Shown piece after piece: positions 10,791 to 38,361 of a stretch of DNA of 64,000 nt (position 1 is the first letter of the stretch; the number at the start of each line of letters is the position of its first letter). The notes beneath the pieces were generated by a model. It saw only the letters and a program-made list of their open reading frames with translations. It made no database searches and had not been told where the DNA came from. The position numbers and the translations under genes were made by a program. The stretch lies in assembly GCF_032854445.1 (NCBI RefSeq), contig NC_088300.1:9734001-9798000 (forward strand), read 5' to 3'. The stretch comes from Liolophura sinensis (lineage: Eukaryota; Mollusca; Polyplacophora; Chitonida; Chitonidae).

Positions 10791-11170
10791 GTCATATTCA
10801 TGAGGCCATCATCATTAGTTCACTAAACAGGAGTTGCAATATTTCGTCGGACCTGGGTTGGAATCGGGTTTGTATAGATAAGGTCCTGATGGATGACCGG
10901 ATCGGAAGGGATATGACAAGGCCTTCAGATAAACGACTTGTGTTTTCCCAGAAACCGTCTGTCCAAAGAGCAGATTCGATGGGTAATATACTATGTAGGC
11001 GATTTTCCATCACGATACCAGTAGATGAACAGCAAGGTGCCAACGCTCCTCTTTGGAAAACTAATATGTGGTTTTCACATATCGAATTACGGATGAGGAA
11101 ATTTCCATATTGTCTGGCCGGGTGGGAATTAAAGTCTCGCGATGTGTTAGCTTGTCTAAGTTTACTGAAT

Positions 11171-11690
11171 TGTCCTGGCCATATACCAGCGGTAACATCA
11201 CATTTATGACTGATCTGTCAACTTGTCTGATGTGTATGTTACTGAATTGTCCCAGCAGTATCTCAGTGGTAACATCACATTCATGACTGATCTGTCATCT
11301 TGTCTGATGTGTATGTTACTGAATTGTCCCAGCAGTATATCAGCGGTAACATCACATTTATGACTGATCTGTCATCTTGTCTGATGTGTATGTTACTGAA
11401 TTGTCCCAGCAGTATCTCAGCGGTAACATCACATTTATGACTGATCTGTCAACTTGTCTGATGTGTATGTTACTGAATTGTCCTAGCAGTATACCAGCGG
11501 TAGCATCACATTTCTGACTGATCTGTCAACTTGTCTGATGTGTATGTTACTGAATTGTCCCAGCAGTATATCAGCGGTAACATCACCTTTCTGACTGATC
11601 TGTCATCTTGTCTGATGTGTATGTTACTGAATTGTCCCAGCAGTATACCAGCGGTAACATCACATTTCTGACTGATCTGTCAACTTGTAA
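11171..11690. repeat. Left-arm 77-bp tandem array of the foldback element
   Basis: About seven copies at 77-bp spacing (for example units starting at 11,210 and 11,287). They are inverted relative to the right-arm array. Variation between units is limited to scattered substitutions such as TCAACT/TCATCT. Confidence 0.92.
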
Positions 11691-13058: not shown

Positions 13059-14270
13059 TACTGCTAGAACAATTCAGTAACATACACGACTAACAACTTA
13101 ATATATCAGTCATAAATGTAATTTTATTTATCTGAATGGTATTTTTCGCCGTACTCAAGAATATTTCACTTATACGACAGCGGCCAGCATTATGGTTGGT
13201 GGAAACCGGGCAGAGCCCGGGGGAAGCCCACGACCATCCGCAGGTTGCTGCGAGCTTCCCACGTACGACCGGAGAGGAAGCCAGCATGAGCTGGACTCGA
13301 ACTCACAGCGACCACATTGGTGAGAGACTTCTGGGTCATTACGCTGCGCTAGCGGGTTAACCAACTGAGTCACGGAGGCCCCCCATAAATGTGATGTTAC
13401 CGCTGAGATACTGCTGGGACAATTCAGTAACATACACATCAGACAAGTTGACAGATCAGTCAGAAATGTGATGTTACCGCTGGTATACTGCTAGGACAAT
13501 TCAGTAACATACACATCAGACAAGTTGACAGATCAGTCAGAAATGTGATGTTACCGCTGATATACTGCTGGGACAATGCAATAACATACACACCAGACAA
13601 GTTGACAGATCAGTAAGAAATGTGATGTTACCGCTGATATACTGCTGGGACAATTCAGTAACATACACATCAGACAAGATGACAGATCAGTCAGAAAGGT
13701 GATGTTACCGCTGGTATACTGCTGGGACAATTCAGTAACATACACGCCAGACATGTTGACAGATCAGTCAGAAATGTGATGTTACCGCTGAGATACTGCT
13801 GGGACAATTCAGTAACATACACATCAGACAAGATGACAGATCAGTCAGAAATGTGATGTTACCGCTGGTAAACTGCTGGGACAATTCAGTAACATACACA
13901 TCAGACAAGATGACAGATCAGTCAGAAATGTGATGTTACCGCTGAGATACTGCTAGGACAATTCAGTAACATACACATCAGACAAGTTGACAGATCAGTC
14001 AGAAATGTGATGTTACCGCTGGTATACTTCTTGGACCAATTCAGTAACATACACATCAGACAAGATGACAGATCAGTCAGAAATGTGATGTTACCGCTGG
14101 TATACTGCTGGGACAATTCAGTAACATACACATCAGACAAGTTGACAGATCAGTCAGAAATGTGATGTTACCGCTGGTATACTTCTTGGACAATTCAGTA
14201 ACATACACATCAGACAAGATGACAGATCAGTCAGAAATGTGATGTTACCGCTGAGATACTGCTGGGACAA
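13059..14270. repeat. Right-arm 77-bp tandem array, with nested SINE
   Basis: About twelve copies of the reverse-complement unit (AAATGTGATGTTACCGCTG ...). A family A SINE (13,121-13,383) separates the first copy from the rest, so that insertion is younger than the array. Confidence 0.92.
13121..13383 (-). mobile_element. SINE family A, near full length, nested in the foldback element
   Basis: On the minus strand, a tRNA-like head (box A-like GACTCAGTTGGTTAACCCGC, box B-like GTGAGTTCGAGTCC) is followed by the family A body and tail. It is flanked by a perfect CATAAATGT duplication (13,111-13,119 and 13,384-13,392). Confidence 0.88.
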
Positions 14271-14649
14271 TTCAGTATCTTAGACAAGCTTACACATCGC
14301 GAGACTCTATTTCCCACCCAGCCAGACAATACGGAACTTTCCCCATCCGTAATTCGATGTGTCAAAACCACGTATTAGTTTTATAAAGAGGAGTGTTGGC
14401 ACCTTGCTGTTCATCTACTGGTATTGTGATGGAAAATCGCCTGTGTAATATATTTCCCATCGAATCTGCTCTTTGGACAAACGGTTTCTGGGAAAACACA
14501 AGTCGGTTACCTGAAGGCCTTGTCATAGTCCTTCCAATCCGGCCATGCATCAGGACCTTATCTACACAAATCCGATTCCAACCCAGGTCCGACGAAATAT
14601 TGCAACTCCTGTTTGGTGAACTAATGATGATGGCCTTATGAATATGACC

Positions 14650-30683: not shown

Positions 30684-33600
30684 GTTTGTAACTAATAGGT
30701 TGGGTTGAAGTGTATTGTACACACAATAAAACTACTTCGGGTAGAATGTCTTAGCTCACGACAATAATAATAAGACTTTGTTTGATGGGTGTACTTACTT
30801 TATTCTTGTGAACATCGTTGATAAAATATAAGTGCTGCTTAATAAAGATGATACAGAGATAGTACAGCTCTGTTGTTACACTTTTAGCAGCTAATAATAA
30901 TAATGATATTTGTAATATTATGTAAATACATAGCGGCACCAAAAGTCTGTCTTCTATTATAACAATGATTGAATTAACTTTGACAATTAATATAAGGGTG
31001 TACACAGACCTGCAGACACAAGTATCAACTACTGAGGCAGTTGTAGAACTATTTCGAAACATTCTGAAAGGCGAAATGAATTTACTATTGAAACACATGT
31101 GTTTGTGGAAGATTGCCTTGGATGATTTATCATTCTAAAGCCCCACAAAAGAGAATTAGTAACGTGGAATTTATATGTTTTATATACTTAACATGTGGAT
31201 ATGCCCCAATCATCTTGCTGAGTGTGGCTGTCTTGTTGTCATCGTTAATAATTTGCTTTTTAAGCTATGTGTACTGTACCAATGAACATTCGTGCAATTC
31301 ATTTCATGTAAATGCATTGTACAAGAGTGTTTTGTATTACACCAAAATGAAAGAAAAAAAAAAAGTGTTGTGTGACAAAGGCACTTTCTCTTAGTGATAT
31401 TCATTCATAATTTGCCGAAGTCTTACACAATAAAGTTACAGAGATTTTATGCCCTTCCAATTCTTCCCCATCATGTTCCAGTGATTGGACGGCTGGATGC
31501 CGTTTGCACACTGCCAAACATTCTCCATGGAAAGGTGCTTGGTCAGACTCCAGTACATGTTGAAGACGAGAGAGAGATAGTCTGTGACAGTGGCTACAAG
31601 CTGTCAGGCAGTCCATACATTACCTGTAAATCTGATGGTTCATGGGCAGCAACGTATGGCAGTCCCAGCATTCCAGAGTGTATAGGTAAGTCAGAACTGT
31701 AGACTGGTTTCTGATTCTGTTTCTGATCTTTGAGTTTCAGGCCATTTTGTCCACGCTGGGCAAAGCATGACCATTATTGTACTGATTCAAACTTACAACC
31801 AAGGGGTATTTATTGTACGTTTTGCATGTTTATTTTTTTTCTTTGGCCAGTGTTGAGCCAAGGTAAGGGAGTACAGCTTCTGTCTTCTTGAAACAGCTCA
31901 AGCAGTCCACAGAATCTGTGACGAAAAAATGATTGATGTATGTGGTCTTGTGAAAGAAAGTTTGATAGTTCGTAAAGTGCAGTGGTCTCCGTCCTGTGCT
32001 TGCCTTGTAGTAAAACCGACCAACTGTTGTTTGTGCAGCAAAAGTATTACATAATTAAATGATACTACGCTTTGGCAAATGATTTGTTGTTCAGCATCTC
32101 CCATGATGACGAGTGGACTAATAACTGCAGATGTACCCCAAAATTGTTTGAAAAGACTGTGAAAGTTGTATCAAGGACTATGCCTGTTTCAGAGTTGGAG
32201 AGCAGTTTCAAATGTTCCCTGCCAGATATTCCTCATGGCAAAGCATTCAACCCTGACCGTGAATCATTACCTGTGGGTGTGAGATGGACAGAAGCAGAGG
32301 TAGTCTGTGACACTGGATTTAAACTCAAGGGGACTCAGTTTATTGTATGTAAGGATGGAACCTGGTCTGCAGCTTATGGCTCCAATGATGACTTCCCCAT
32401 GTGTGTCCGTAAGTGCCTACTGTACAGTCTGTCTACATGAAGGATGGGCGAAGTGGTTTCTACCTATAATATGAATGAGTTTAGCTATCATTTCAAAATG
32501 CTTGAGCACAGATTATGCCGTAATTGAAAAGCTCACTTTCTGGGTGAAAATCACATGTAGAAAGTTTTGTCCTTTTGTTGTGGAAGGTTTGTATTATGCA
32601 TTCAGGCTTTCTCCATCCATGAAATTTGTGTATAAAATGAAATAATCTTGACTAAACTCCAGTGTATCAGTCATACTGTCAATCAATCCAGCTGTGTCTA
32701 CACATAAAATCCTATTAACTTAAGTGCCAAAATTTTCTGTACACATAATTATAAATCGTTCAGATAAGTAGAAAGACATTTCTGAATTCACACACTCAGG
32801 AGGTCCCCTGAAGTCCCCAGGTGGCTGCTCTGTGTACATTTCCATTCATTAGGGTATTCATTGATTGTCTGTAATTCATTTTTGAGTACATCTCATCACT
32901 GATTTGAATTGTTCTTATTGACAGGTAAGACATGTCTGCGAGTGTCTCACATAGAGAATGCTGAAGTGGAGTACAGGGACCTGAAGGCAGAGATCCGCTG
33001 TAACCCAGGCTATCGTATGACCATGAATTCCCCAGCCATTCTCACCTGCTCCAATGGCCAGTGGTTAGGGCCAGTCCCTAGCTGTGGTATGTCATCATAC
33101 AAAATGTCCAGTGATATAACAACTTAATTGGAATTATTGCTTTTTAAAAAAAATGCTCAGGAATTACTGCTTTATATGAGACACTAGATAGGTTTTAATT
33201 ACCTATGTAAGCATGGTTCACCATAGTGTAGATACAAGTTGTGCTGATGAAGAACTAGATGCTCCGCTATGTGTTAGAATCAAGTCAATATTCTGTGCTA
33301 TGAAGCAAGTGAATCATATGATAAATTGACCCATTACTTAATTATGTCAGTGATGGTCAGTGAAAAATTAGTTCATAACTGCTTGTGAGACTAATATAAT
33401 AATTGTTCGCTGCTGTGAGGGAAATAAAGATATCAAACTAACATAGAGACTGATTCTCCTTTTCCTGTAATATACATAGCAAGCCTATGTAAAATAAAAT
33501 GTAAAGTCAATGCAGTATTTCTCACCCATTGATTTACCATAGGTATGAACGTAATGATGTTGTGAAATTGGCATGTATATGTGGTGAAATCAGGCAGACC

Positions 33601-36600
33601 TCTGATTCATATGTTTTCTCTTCTTGTCCCTGCCAGTCTTGTTAAAACCCTGCCCTCAGCCTCCGCAGATTCCATTTGCCAATGTTCAGTATTACAAGGC
33701 TAACCCTGTGGACGGATCAAAGGTCACATATCACTGTCATAGCGGGTACACCATGGATAACCAGGGCCTAGCAGAACTCACCTGTGTCAATGGAGAGTGG
33801 CCTGGCAAACTGCCCACCTGTAGTAAGTGTTGTTGTATGAAATGCTGATTGTTTTACTCATAACCGTCAGGGGTGTTGGTGAGGAAGATACTGAAGTGAC
33901 CTTGTCTGGTTATGAATGGATTTTGGGACACTTTGACAGCAATGTGTATGACTCCCAGCTGCTGGTATAGGAAGTGCAAGTTTAATCCTGAACTTGGACA
34001 GGGAATTTCTAGATTCTCCTGTGGTCATACTGACAATAAATAGGTCCATTTGGGCAGTCTTACATTTGTGGAGACCACTTGTTTTCCAAAAACAGGATGT
34101 GAAGGCTGACTGGACACATGGGAAAGTTTGTCTGTAACTTACCAAAAGTTGATGGTTCACCCATGGGTACATTACCTTCGCCGATTTGACAACCACCAGT
34201 GGCAGCTGTATTGGTCACTGGTTTACAGTGTGATGTCCTTATGTTCAGACTGTTGAGTGAGTTGAGATTCTACAACAAGTGCACCAATGTAAGACTTGTG
34301 TGACGGCAGTGGCGCCACTGTTCTCCTCCAGTCGCCAAGGAAACAACACGTTAGTGACCATTACCTTCTCCAGTAGACTCTGGAGAGCGAATGGAACACA
34401 CCATTGTGATACCAGTTTTCCAAACAGTTAAAATTGATCACCATCACATAAATGAAACCTTTTTGAATGTTCTGTTTCTAAACAGCAGACAAAAAAAATA
34501 AACGAATTTTATATATGGAGATTTTATTGGCTGACCTAAGGAATATTGGAGCCTGTAAATGTAAGAATTAAGATAATGCTGTAGTTAGCTGTACATGTAG
34601 CTTATGTAAAAATGAATATAATGACAGTTTATTAGGCCCTTGACCTTCTATTCTTGATTCATCTGTTTGAATCCAGCTATTGAGACTTTGAAGGCCAGTG
34701 CTCTCGACTCAGATCTCCACTGACCACTGTGATATAGCTGAATAATTTGCAAAGTACGACACTAAGCAAGTCAAGTAAATAGAAATAAAATGTAAAGATA
34801 ACATATCTGTTTCAGCCATCACAATACAGTGTGAGCAGCCCGAATCCATCCCCAATGGTCACTGGTCCCGGGTGGGTGGGGATGAGCTGTACGTGTATGA
34901 AGTCAACTCTAAGGTGCAGTACGAGTGTAATGAAGGGTTTCGTGTGCTAGGACAGAGTCTGATGTGGTGTAAAGAAGACAAGACCTGGTCTCACATACCT
35001 CCCCAGTGTATAGCCCAGACAGGTGAGTTTAGTACACCTGGCCTTCCATACTTCCCCAGTGTATAGCCCAGACAGGTGAGTTTAGTACATCTGGCCTCCC
35101 ATACTTTCCAAGTGTATAGCCCAGACAGATGAGTTTAATACACCTGGCCTCACATACCTCCCCAGTGTATAGCCCAGACAGGTGAGTTTAGTACACCTGG
35201 CCTCCCATACTTCCCCAGTGTATAGCCAAAGACAGGTGAGTTTAGTACACCTGGTCTCCCATACTTCCCCTGTGTATAGCCTAGACAGGTGAGTTTAGTA
35301 CACCTGGCCTCCCATACTTCCCCAGTGTATAGCCAAAGACAGGTGAGTTTAGTACACCTGGTCTCCCATACTTCCCAAATGTATAGCCCAGACAGATGAG
35401 TTTAATACACCTTTTCTCACATACCTCCCCAGTGTATAACCCAGACAGGTGAGATTGATACATCTGGTCTCACATACCTCCCCATTGTATAACCCAGACA
35501 GGTGAGTTTAGTACACACTGGTCTCTCATACTTCCAAAGTGTACAGCCCAAATAAGTGAGTCTAACATACCTCTGTAGTGTATAGCCCAGCGGCCACATC
35601 AAAGCTGGAATACCCGTTATCAAGCCCGGGGTGGGTGAAAATATGGTACTTGTTGCTGCCGTTCAGCACTGAGAGGTTAGAGCAAGGAAACAGAACTGGT
35701 TGGTCTGGTGTCAGCATAATGTGACTGGGTGGGGTGTCATATCTGGTGCCTTCAGCATGATACTTCAGTGGTGGCAGCACTTTGGTTGAATCGATTCACC
35801 CTGCAACAAGAAGACATAGTGTATGTACACACACCTAAAAACTCCTTGTCGTTTGACTGAAAAGTTTGTTAAGTATGACGTTAAACCTCAGGCATTACTG
35901 CTATACATATATAGCCCTGACAAGTGAATTTAATACACCTTGTCTCATACCTCCCCAGTGTGTATGTTGCTAATGTTTTATACACCTGGTCTCACATGCC
36001 TCACCAGTGTGTCTCCCAGTCAGTTCAATTTCTTGTATTTCTGTCATAGATTCAGTTTTTCAATTTGTGAGATGTTTATTAATTTTGGCTATAGGTCCAG
36101 TTTTTGAATGGTCAAAATTTTGCAATCTAATATTCATTTCTGTGTACTCTTGTGTTTGAGACAGTGCTGTTTTGGGATGAGAACTGCACACTGTATCTGT
36201 TACAGAAAAATCCTTGTACTGCTCCATTTGTTGAGAACTGCACACTGTTGTAACCACAGCTGTATCTGTTACAGATGAGTCTATGTACTGCTCCTCACCC
36301 CCTGACTTGCCTGACGGGCAGTGTACATGTGAGGGTCATGACCAGAACTACTGCGAGCCCTTCACTCCCGGGATGCGTTGGCTGTGTCACTGTGGTGAGG
36401 GCTACGCTCTGGAGGGTGCTGAAGCCCTCACCTGTACCTCCAGTGGTCATTGGAACCATGACATGCCAAACTGCATACCAGGTAATCATGACATGCCAAA
36501 CTGCATGCCAGGTAATCATTGCCTGCCAAACTGCATACAAGATAAACAATGACATGCCAAATTGCATACCACGTAACCATGACATGCTCAACCGCATACC

Positions 36601-38361
36601 ACGTAACCATGACATGCCAAACTGCACAGCAGTTAACTAGGACATGACAAACTGCATACTTGGCAAACCATGACATGCAAGGCTGCTTAGCATTGAAACC
36701 ATGACATACCAAACTTAATATCAGGTAATCATGAAATGCCAAACTGTGTAATAGGTGACCATGACATGCCAGACTGCATGTGTGGTAATCATGACATGCG
36801 AAACTTCATACGAGATAACCATGATAAGCGAAACTGCCAGCCAGGTAACCATGATGTGAAATATTGCATGCCAGGTAACCATGACACCAAACTGCATTCC
36901 ACGTAACCATACCAGGTAACCGTGGCATGCTTAACAGCATATCTGGTAACATCAGCAATATTAACATTGGAAGCAAGGCATCATTCAAGCTTGTAAAGTT
37001 ATATCTTTGTAAAGTTGATGTATTTTACATGTACCTCAATAAAGCACAAGTACATGTAGCATGCTCATAAGCTGTGCTCTGATCATTGGATTTGTTGATT
37101 GCTACAGTTGTATGAATTAACAGGTCATTTTCATTTGACAGTGTATTATATCAAACTTGTCAGAGGCACACAGGCTTACATTTTCTTTGTTGTCATAATG
37201 ACGTCGTACAGTGGTAAATTTATCATTTTGTGATTTCAGTGTCTAACCAGATCAGTGCTGGATCAGACCTCACCACCCCTGACAGCTCTCATATCAGTAC
37301 CCTGGCCATTGTGGTTGCTACGGCCTGCAGTGTTCTGGGCGTCCTACTGCTTGTTATGGTGGCCGTAATATTCCGTCGTCACAAGCCACGCCCTCGTCTG
37401 TACCACACCACTCCTGCCCCACCCCCTTATACCCGTGTACACAGCAACTCTGTGGATGAGCATGACCGTGTGGCGCTAATAGCCTATGCGGAAGGGCGCC
37501 AAGTCGCCCTGCCTTCTTACGATGAAGCAACACGAGGTAACCAGCGTGGGCAGGCCTCTCCCGGTTATGGCACCACAGTTGGTGTGGTCAGTGAGGTAGG
37601 ATCACATGGCCAGCAGTACAGGCCACTGCCCCCTGTACCCTCCGCCCTGCGGGGCAACCACCAACCTAACCCTCCTGCTAACACAGACCACAGTAACAGG
37701 CACTCAACGGCCACAACCAGCACAGTGCACAACAGGGATGGCTTCCCTGAGGTGTTTGGTTCTCTCGACACTGTCAACGTTAGTATTAGTGATGCCTCCA
37801 CAGCAGGTACTATGGAAACAGTGGACAGTGGGGCTTCTAACCCATCTCTGGCTTCACGGCGAGCGAATGCTGGCAGCCTGGGATCTTCCAACGGTAGCCT
37901 GGCCAATGATGGTAAGTCGTTTTCATTCAATGTGACAACTGTCATACATGATTCTTGACTCTCACCAGTCAAAGTGTCTAATACACAACTCTCACTTTGT
38001 CTCTGTTAGGGAGTTGGTGAGGTGCCGGACAGCTTCAATAGCATTTAACCTCCTTAATTTCCTTGCTTATTTGTTCCTAAATAAGTACCATTCAATAATG
38101 TACTTTTTACCTGAATGTTCTTAAAAGATCCTTTAGTTGTTTTCACCTGTTCTTATCAAACTTTTTAGATTTTACTAAGAGGCTTTCTAAGACATTTACC
38201 ACAACTTTGCTACATGACATGACATTGGAGGTGTGTTCAGGATGGGCTTTTGAGTTTGCACCCCATTATTTGCAGATGCCCCCTTGCTAGAGACCAGTCA
38301 TGATGGTCGTATCATGAGTACTAGCTCAGAGCCACTCCCAGAGGAAGATAAAGAAGAGTGA
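30617..38361 (+). CDS. SUSD4-like transmembrane protein with six sushi (CCP) domains, nine exons
   Basis: Coding exons: 30617-30683, 31482-31685, 32193-32408, 32925-33086, 33637-33822, 34816-35022, 36275-36481, 37240-37911, 38276-38361. They total 2007 nt (668 residues), all introns in phase 1. Order: signal peptide (1-22), six CCP domains (one per exon, about 23-416), a short stalk, one membrane helix (about 437-461) and a ~207-residue cytosolic tail. The tail has PPPY (477-480) and LPSYDEA (507-513). Human SUSD4 also has LPSYDEA after its helix, and the last CCP shares its extra-cysteine pattern; vertebrate SUSD4 has only four CCPs. SUSD4 is known to restrain complement and to bind NEDD4-type ubiquitin ligases, for which PPxY/LPxY are ligands. 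The role here is inferred. Introns 6 and 7 carry splice-donor minisatellites. Confidence 0.9.
31482..31685 (+). CDS. SUSD4-like exon 2: CCP1
   Basis: Acceptor TTCCAG|TG, donor ATAG|GTAAGT. It encodes a sushi domain with four cysteines (VCTLPNI ... VCDSGYKL ... TCKSDGSWAA ... PEC). The YGSP insertion before the last cysteine is shared with CCP2, suggesting the two arose by exon duplication. Confidence 0.9.
32193..32408 (+). CDS. SUSD4-like exon 3: CCP2
   Basis: Acceptor TTTCAG|AG, donor GTCC|GTAAGT. The domain (KCSLPDIPHGKAF ... VCDTGFKLKG ... VCKDGTWSAAYG ... PMC) closely resembles CCP1. GFKLKG also occurs in CCP1 of human SUSD4. Confidence 0.9.
32925..33086 (+). CDS. SUSD4-like exon 4: CCP3
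   Basis: Acceptor TGACAG|GT, donor TGTG|GTATGT. A compact sushi domain (TCLRVSHIENAEVEY ... RCNPGYRM ... TCSNGQWLG ... PSC). Confidence 0.9.
33637..33822 (+). CDS. SUSD4-like exon 5: CCP4
   Basis: Acceptor TGCCAG|TC, donor TGTA|GTAAGT. Sushi domain with CPQPPQIPFANVQY ... HCHSGYTM ... TCVNGEWPG ... PTC. Confidence 0.9.
34816..35022 (+). CDS. SUSD4-like exon 6: CCP5
   Basis: Acceptor TTTCAG|CC, donor ACAG|GTGAGT. Sushi domain with QCEQPESIPNGHW ... ECNEGFRVLG ... WCKEDKTWS ... PQC. Its last ~33 bases plus the donor are repeated about ten more times in the following intron. Reading past the donor meets a stop at 35,064-35,066. Confidence 0.9.
34985..35595 (+). repeat. Minisatellite of duplicated exon end plus splice donor (intron 6), 53-bp unit
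   Basis: The unit begins in exon 6 and crosses the exon-intron junction: TCACATACCTCCCCAGTGTA, TAGCCCAGACAG, then GTGAGTTTAGTACACCTGG. Donor-equivalent positions are 35023, 35076, 35129, 35182, 35236, 35289, 35343, 35396, 35449, 35502 and 35556. Nine keep GT; those at 35129 and 35396 read AT. Spacing is 53 or 54 bp. Confidence 0.93.
35615..35850 (+). mobile_element. SINE family C copy in intron 6
   Basis: GGTACTTGTTGCTGC and AGAGCAAGGAA match the family C copy near 41,310-41,360. It continues into TGTCAGCATAATGTGACTGG and GTGGGGTGTCATATCTGG, the same sequence as the unit of the 1-1300 minisatellite. It is the only non-amplified copy of that motif seen in the window. Confidence 0.65.
36275..36481 (+). 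CDS. SUSD4-like exon 7: CCP6
   Basis: Acceptor TTACAG|AT, donor CCAG|GTAATC. Sushi domain with two additional cysteines (CSSPPDLPDGQCTCEGHDQ ... YCEPFTPG ... CHCGEGYAL), like the last CCP of vertebrate SUSD4. The final cysteine (HDMPNC) lies inside the unit that is repeated in the following intron. Confidence 0.9.
36453..36960 (+). repeat. Minisatellite of duplicated exon end plus splice donor (intron 7), 30-bp unit
   Basis: About 16 copies of AACCATGACATGCCAAACTG plus CATACCAGGT; the first is the last coding segment of exon 7 with its donor. The GT at 36,482 recurs at 36,512 and, after one lost copy, at several later positions in the form ACGTAACC or AGGTAACC. The unit is mostly 30 bp, so the frame is kept: read-through adds NHDMPNCMPG and then a diverged copy before a stop at 36,550-36,552. 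Confidence 0.92.
37240..37911 (+). CDS. SUSD4-like exon 8: stalk, membrane helix, cytosolic tail
   Basis: Acceptor TTTCAG|TG, donor GATG|GTAAGT. Encodes a Ser/Thr-rich stalk, the helix (STLAIVVATACSVLGVLLLV and onward), a basic stop-transfer RRHKPRPR, PPPY and LPSYDEA motifs, then a Ser/Gly/Asn-rich tail (SLGSSNGSLAND). Confidence 0.92.
38276..38361 (+). CDS. SUSD4-like exon 9: C-terminus
   Basis: Acceptor TTGCAG|AT. Encodes APLLETSHDGR ... EPLPEEDKEE and a TGA stop. An acidic end after a PLLE/PLME-like motif also occurs in human SUSD4. Confidence 0.85.

Follow-up and report, generated by a model that had tools for sequence, protein, structure and literature searches.

Candidate mirages in a mollusc: minisatellites across predicted exon-intron junctions in a chiton gene with sushi exons

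Tandem repeats that run across exon-intron boundaries were described in the globin genes of amphioxus, where they are called mirages after work on Adh3 (PMC3087553). Amphioxus mirages are reported for Adh3, the globins BflGb6 and BflGb9, troponin C, and PGBD5 (PMC3087553, PMC3902484); the PGBD5 mirage is described, and the troponin C mirage cited, in PMC3902484. RT-PCR on the globin mirages found splicing seemingly undisturbed, length instability was reported, and one amphioxus mirage was apparently misassembled in the draft genome (PMC3087553). Human internal tandem repeats are minisatellites with a unit of about 30 bp on average, and some of them lie at exon-intron boundaries (PMC2812944). 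In a model by Rogers, as cited in PMC3087553, an AG/GT proto-splice site that is duplicated in tandem gives rise to a new intron. A literature search at the level of titles and abstract openings returned no mirage from a mollusc.

We analyzed 64,000 nt of the genome of the chiton Liolophura sinensis (NC_088300.1, positions 9,734,001 to 9,798,000; hereafter the window). The Liolophura japonica genome was later corrected to L. sinensis (PMC12441733). Amphioxus was rejected as the source of the DNA: the mitochondrial genes are in an order resembling that of molluscs, and a search for the GFP family gave no match, which is weak evidence because the controls of that search gave none either. The features discussed below are listed in Table 1.

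Table 1. Features of the window, and arrays and exons found at other loci of the genome
Feature	Position	Strand	Details
Upstream sushi exon	31505..31651 (match coordinates)	+	PF00084 match; taken as same gene
Upstream sushi exon	33651..33821 (match coordinates)	+	PF00084 match; taken as same gene
Sushi (CCP) exon, seeding array 1 at its 3' end	34816..35022	+	PF00084 match C6:9768830-9769009, E 1.1e-9; intron phase 1 predicted
Array 1 (mirage)	34983..35561	+	53-bp unit; 11 donor-equivalents
First donor of array 1, CAG/GTGAGT	35023..35028	+	predicted authentic 5' splice site; U1 duplex -12.7 kcal/mol
Dispersed interspersed element, ~305 bp	35596..35900	+	in older end of array 1; SINE-like by size only
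Diverged relic copies of array 1	35905..36030 (about)	+	past the inserted element; motif matches and sequence reading
Next sushi exon, 3' end seeding array 2	36275..36481	+	PF00084 match C6:9770289-9770474, E 9.7e-4; ends predicted
Array 2 (second mirage, same gene)	36454..36910	+	30-bp unit, ~28 exonic bases + GT; 15.2 copies, 72% matches (TRF)
First donor of array 2, CAG/GTAATC	36482..36487	+	predicted
Following exon, to stop codon	37240..37958	+	membrane span, then a PPPY-bearing cytoplasmic tail; ORF 37218-37958; frame continuous
Donor-spanning array at sushi exon outside window	L027		87 bp, 9.3 copies
Donor-spanning array at sushi exon outside window	L018		39 bp, 9.5 copies
Mot1/BTAF1-like helicase exon	array start		PDB 2.6e-18
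Fe-only-hydrogenase-like exon	array start		Pfam 1.8e-12, PDB 6.5e-7
2-oxoglutarate dehydrogenase (OGDH) exon	array start		PDB 8.9e-20
RNA polymerase III RPC1 exon	array start		PDB 2.7e-7
Alpha-L-fucosidase exon	array start		PDB 2.6e-11; Pfam 5.4e-4, below its cut-off

Two arrays in successive introns of one gene

TRF reported array 1 with a period of 53, 10.9 copies, 87% matches, and a score of 830; the top score over 500 dinucleotide shuffles of positions 34901-35650 was 59 (period of at least 10). An earlier note on this DNA, made from the letters alone, had described a 53-bp repeat with eleven regular donor-equivalents, nine of them GTGAG, and this description was confirmed. The donor-equivalents lie at 35023, 35076, 35129, 35182, 35236, 35289, 35343, 35396, 35449, 35502, and 35556, in steps of 53 or 54 bp, and the two that depart from GTGAG (35129 and 35396) read ATGAG. 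The left edge of the array falls 40 nt within the sushi exon, whose acceptor and donor are both predicted; the unit thus consists of the exon end and the first 13 bases of the intron. The array therefore does multiply a junction predicted to be functional, as the note had proposed, and its division of the unit into about 33 coding and 20 intronic bases is replaced by the roughly 40 and 13 that the TRF edge and the alignment give. Units 3 and 8 have ATGAG/AATAC in common, and units 5 and 7 share a AAAGACAG variant that is one base longer; these shared variants are the mark of multi-unit duplication within the array.

A second array, which the earlier note lacked, starts 28 nt inside the next sushi exon. 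Since the arrays lie at the ends of two adjacent exons, two successive introns of one gene begin with such arrays. Among the 11 donors of array 1, only that at 35023 gives an uninterrupted frame with the exons that follow, and the frame runs on from the first donors of both arrays into the exon that ends with the stop codon. The two upstream sushi exons have no array at their predicted donors. The membrane span and the PPPY motif were read by eye; together with the preceding sushi exons they make the label SUSD4-like plausible for this gene.

In both arrays the unit crosses a predicted exon-intron boundary, and AG/GT signals are present in several but not all copies (GTGAG in 9 of 11 for array 1, mixed in array 2). 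The outermost copy coincides with the authentic exon end, as judged by reading frame in the window and by homology at five other loci. On this sequence evidence, the chiton arrays are mirages, a known kind of structure, here in a mollusc.

Misassembly is a classic problem in tandem arrays, and the misassembled amphioxus case is a precedent for regarding array 1 as an artefact or as a collapsed or expanded read error. Against this, the PacBio HiFi reads average 8,347 bp (PMC11068029), so the 579-bp array is well within one read; its copies differ from one another, a dispersed element interrupts its older end, and similar arrays are present at other loci. We consider an artefact extremely unlikely.

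The dispersed element was found at 39 other places with 78-85% identity (40 scored of 4417 first-look candidates). Past it, copies of the array 1 motif match at 19 of 23 positions at 35924 and weakly, at 14 of 23 (the threshold), at 36024, and array 1 seems to have formerly extended to about this region. As these weaker copies are cut off by the element, array 1 is probably not new. A 224-bp probe of the exon end, searched against the 609-Mb genome, gave eight matches, all of them the array 1 locus and its own repeats; no paralog lacking the array was close enough for dating, the next best having 35% identity.

Two further observations concern minisatellites of the window. A 41-bp part of the dispersed element is about 85% like part of a large minisatellite at 1-1309, and a copy of the element may have been the origin of that minisatellite. 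Arrays with 77-bp units at 11162-11688 and 13387-14277 are about 1.7 kb apart, and their consensuses, compared by eye, resemble reverse complements of each other.

Conservation, U1 pairing, and reading frame of the later donors

If the later donors were under selection, their bases should vary less than the remainder of the unit. The GT columns of the two window arrays do not: their identities are 0.82/1.00 in array 1 and 0.71/0.86 in array 2, and the mean column identities are 0.913 and 0.838, respectively. The nine-base donor of array 1 reaches 0.949, slightly above the unit, with 22% of the nine-base stretches of the unit equally high. For array 2 the unit had been truncated too soon past the GT, which makes the nine-base statistic invalid; only the GT columns were used. 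The array at L027 has GT columns of 1.00/1.00 in 10 of 10 units against an average of 0.934, a value that 38% of two-base stretches equal. Across these three arrays, column conservation revealed no clear excess at the donors over the rest of the unit. The nine GTGAG among 11 copies are about what overall unit identity predicts and give no clear sign of function.

Eight of the 11 copies of array 1 have a strong U1 match (-11.6 to -12.7 kcal/mol). To this extent the series of nearly identical donors described in the earlier note is real; for the protein, the ten later ones are not equivalent choices, because each would add the same in-frame stop codon (35064-35066) to the mRNA. In array 2, use of the second donor (36512) would keep the frame and lengthen the protein by ten residues, the third donor-equivalent (36542) is in frame but is not GT, and a stop codon lies ahead of the fourth; the later donors tested would add a stop.

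The comparison was made at nine loci, counting as later donor-like sites, beyond the unit donors, all GT sites of the array piece that pair with U1 at -6.5 kcal/mol or better. At five loci (L018, L027, L050, L057, and window array 1), read-through of the exon reaches a stop codon ahead of the first such site. At the other four (window array 2, L056, L060, and L055), one or two sites precede the stop, and at two of these four a later site is in frame, namely 36512 in the window and one 75 nt on at L055. U1 pairing is stronger at later sites than at the first donor in 20 of 35 cases at RPC1, 5 of 5 at the sushi exon of L018, 11 of 15 at L055, and 1 of 19 at L057. At RPC1, protein conservation and the stop met on read-through put the end of the exon at the first donor or at a GT lying 8 nt beyond it. 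This would point to a choice of donor by position over strength.

Strong pairing in most copies of array 1, later sites stronger than the first at RPC1 and L018, and the slightly raised conservation of the array 1 nine-base donor and of the L027 GT would suit extra donors with a function: U1 sites that strengthen exon definition, guard the transcript against premature polyadenylation, or adjust its output by way of unproductive splicing. The modest excess of donor words in arrays over a control, given below, would suit it too. The GT columns of both window arrays, conserved no better than the rest of the unit, speak against such a function, as do the density of array edges, no higher at exon ends than outside sushi exons, and the duplication of acceptors as well as donors (both below). 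We regard functional donors as very improbable.

The reading frames bear equally on the proposal made for amphioxus globins, in which an intron would be in the process of being gained or an exon extended, with later copies recruitable as exons or alternative ends. This model has been published for mirages (PMC3087553). The rotated units of both window arrays have GT at the start and AG at the end, and the in-frame sites at 36512 and L055 (the latter before the stop) would permit an extension. The stop given by all ten later donors of array 1, and in array 2 the third donor-equivalent without GT and the stop before the fourth, make ongoing intron gain or exon extension a highly improbable account.

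Arrays at sushi exons and at donor words across the genome

To the window we added 28 regions with clustered sushi matches, picked by eye among the 150 matches listed. This sample comprises 238,225 bases and 98 matches, for each of which one donor and one acceptor were predicted by means of donor weights, with phase 1 favored; some of the predictions are doubtful. The 98 exons are not independent, since some are recent paralogs of one another.

An array spans the predicted donor in 4 of the 98 exons (2 of 94 outside the window; L027 and L018) and the predicted acceptor in two (L030 and L020). The acceptor-side mirages, at L020:252-827 and L030:3113-3512, have about 5-7 units that contain the 3' splice site and the start of the sushi exon. 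All six exons touched by arrays are touched across a junction; no array among the 98 overlapped a sushi exon without crossing one.

The density of TRF-array edges per 10 kb is 5.1 (5 edges) in exon ends, taken as the outer 50 nt of an exon, 1.3 (1 edge) in the interiors, and 4.9 (108 edges) outside sushi exons, where "outside" may take in other exons; without the window the values are 3.2, 1.4, and 4.5 (3, 1, and 71 edges). About 10% of the bases outside sushi exons are within arrays. There is no enrichment of edges at the ends of these sushi exons, with 5 observed and 4.8 expected (3 and 4.2 without the window). Since the densities are alike, arrays reach exon ends about as often as they do the surrounding sequence. 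Edges tend to be sparser in the interiors, in small numbers (P 0.11; 0.16 without the window).

Three CAGGTRAGT words spaced 30-60 bp apart occur 1104 times in the genome, and the reversed word gives 254 such occurrences; the single words number 19,904 and 7,585. The ratio of word to control is thus 4.3 in arrays and 2.6 for singles, an excess that rests on one control word and to which long arrays contribute many hits. As the excess depends on the control and array edges are not enriched, we do not claim that arrays form preferentially at donors. Among the matches listed, a count by eye gave 17 donor-word arrays and 4 control arrays in the first 18.84 Mb of C1.

We read the upstream edges of 20 donor-word arrays, 13 from the triple-word list and 7 clusters from the first 3 Mb of the single-word list; one of these clusters is also in the triple-word list, and 3 of the 17 C1 arrays were left out. 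ORFs of at least 25 codons that end at the estimated first donor (14 ORFs at nine loci) were compared with Pfam, and six of the 14 also with PDB. An exon was recognized by homology at the start of 5 of the 20 arrays (5 of 13 from the triple-word list, none of the 7 clusters). At four of the five, the best match extends through the final codon ahead of the first donor, and in the Fe-only-hydrogenase-like exon it ends one residue short; homology that extends this far identifies the exon as the source of the repeat. Mot1/BTAF1 is our own reading of the PDB match, and the Fe-only-hydrogenase-like protein is probably CIAO3. From the end of its exon onward, at least 30 triple-word matches extend from 5471572 to 5475216. 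This family has a single locus in the genome (3 of 3 matches), and RNA_pol_Rpb1_5 matches flank the RPC1 array on both sides in profile order; a correct mRNA is therefore presumably still made from both genes.

The remaining 15 arrays had no recognized exon at the first donor in the Pfam and PDB searches, which covered part of the ORFs; in two of them (L042 and L045) the array runs to the upstream end of the piece, and the other 13 simply gave no recognized exon. The ORF at L046 is coding-like, has no Pfam match, and matches pentatricopeptide-repeat proteins in PDB over 20 residues; we did not count it. A Cyclotide match in Pfam at L054 (E 0.021, below the cut-off) was judged to be due to chance.

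These further cases in the chiton genome, and the earlier description of mirages in amphioxus, remove the array's standing as the unusual case that the earlier note took it for. The window mirages are probably among many in this genome. As a separate observation from the genome searches, contig C99 has seven cox1 matches at intervals of about 15.5 kb and may be a concatemer of the mitochondrial genome that was left uncut.

Tolerated minisatellite turnover as the probable explanation, and relation to known mirages

The array starts in the exon, its unit joins the exon end to a GT-initiated intron start, and the arrangement recurs at other exon ends. We favor, with a probability of about 0.87, the explanation that the birth of a minisatellite happened to include a donor and was tolerated because splicing uses the first donor and removes the copies. 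A tandem duplication of a segment straddling the exon-intron junction would have produced the minisatellite, and further multi-unit duplications would have lengthened it. Through exon definition or proximity, the spliceosome would join the exon's acceptor to the first donor, and the whole array would then be removed with the intron. Transcripts spliced at a later array 1 donor would have a premature stop codon and probably be lost. With the array spliced out and such transcripts lost, the copies would be close to neutral, and arrays could accumulate about as fast as minisatellites in the surrounding DNA, no function being needed.

Several results count against this neutral explanation. Use of the first donor is itself deduced, the array 1 nine-base donor and the L027 GT are conserved slightly above their units, and the word enrichment would allow for arrays being formed or kept preferentially at donors. 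Three quarters of the inspected arrays (15 of 20) had no recognized exon, and four of nine loci have a later site ahead of the stop.

Mirages are natural experiments on the choice among many nearly equal 5' splice sites, and neutral turnover predicts that the first donor is used and that the later ones are mostly unproductive. A further-reaching possibility, which we consider unlikely, is that many chiton introns (possibly hundreds or more) start with arrays of near-identical donors, that position sets the choice, and that the arrays may be retained as U1 platforms. If there are many such introns, also in widely conserved genes such as RPC1, with its 20 of 35 later sites that outdo the first donor in U1 pairing, donor choice at these introns would have to be set by position and not by strength.

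In the literature examined, mirages were previously known only from amphioxus, with the human boundary repeats as a near relative. The presence of mirages at several chiton loci suggests that such arrays are not peculiar to cephalochordates and are likely a by-product of a minisatellite-rich genome.

The chiton arrays resemble amphioxus mirages in that the unit crosses the boundary and the outermost copy is the (predicted) exon end. They differ in that they come from a mollusc, that two begin successive introns of one gene (amphioxus PGBD5 may likewise hold more than one), that their frequency was estimated from a sample of exons, and that they are found in widely conserved genes (RPC1, OGDH). 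With the human internal tandem repeats they share being minisatellites at exon-intron boundaries (PMC2812944). In the human case the repeats differ from one recent paralog to another and change transcripts or create new introns (PMC2812944), whereas no close paralog of the chiton gene was found and its array is predicted to be spliced out. The chiton arrays and the Rogers model have in common the type of mutation, a tandem duplication that carries a splice signal; in the chiton, however, the duplication lengthens an existing intron from its 5' end, and no new intron is seen.
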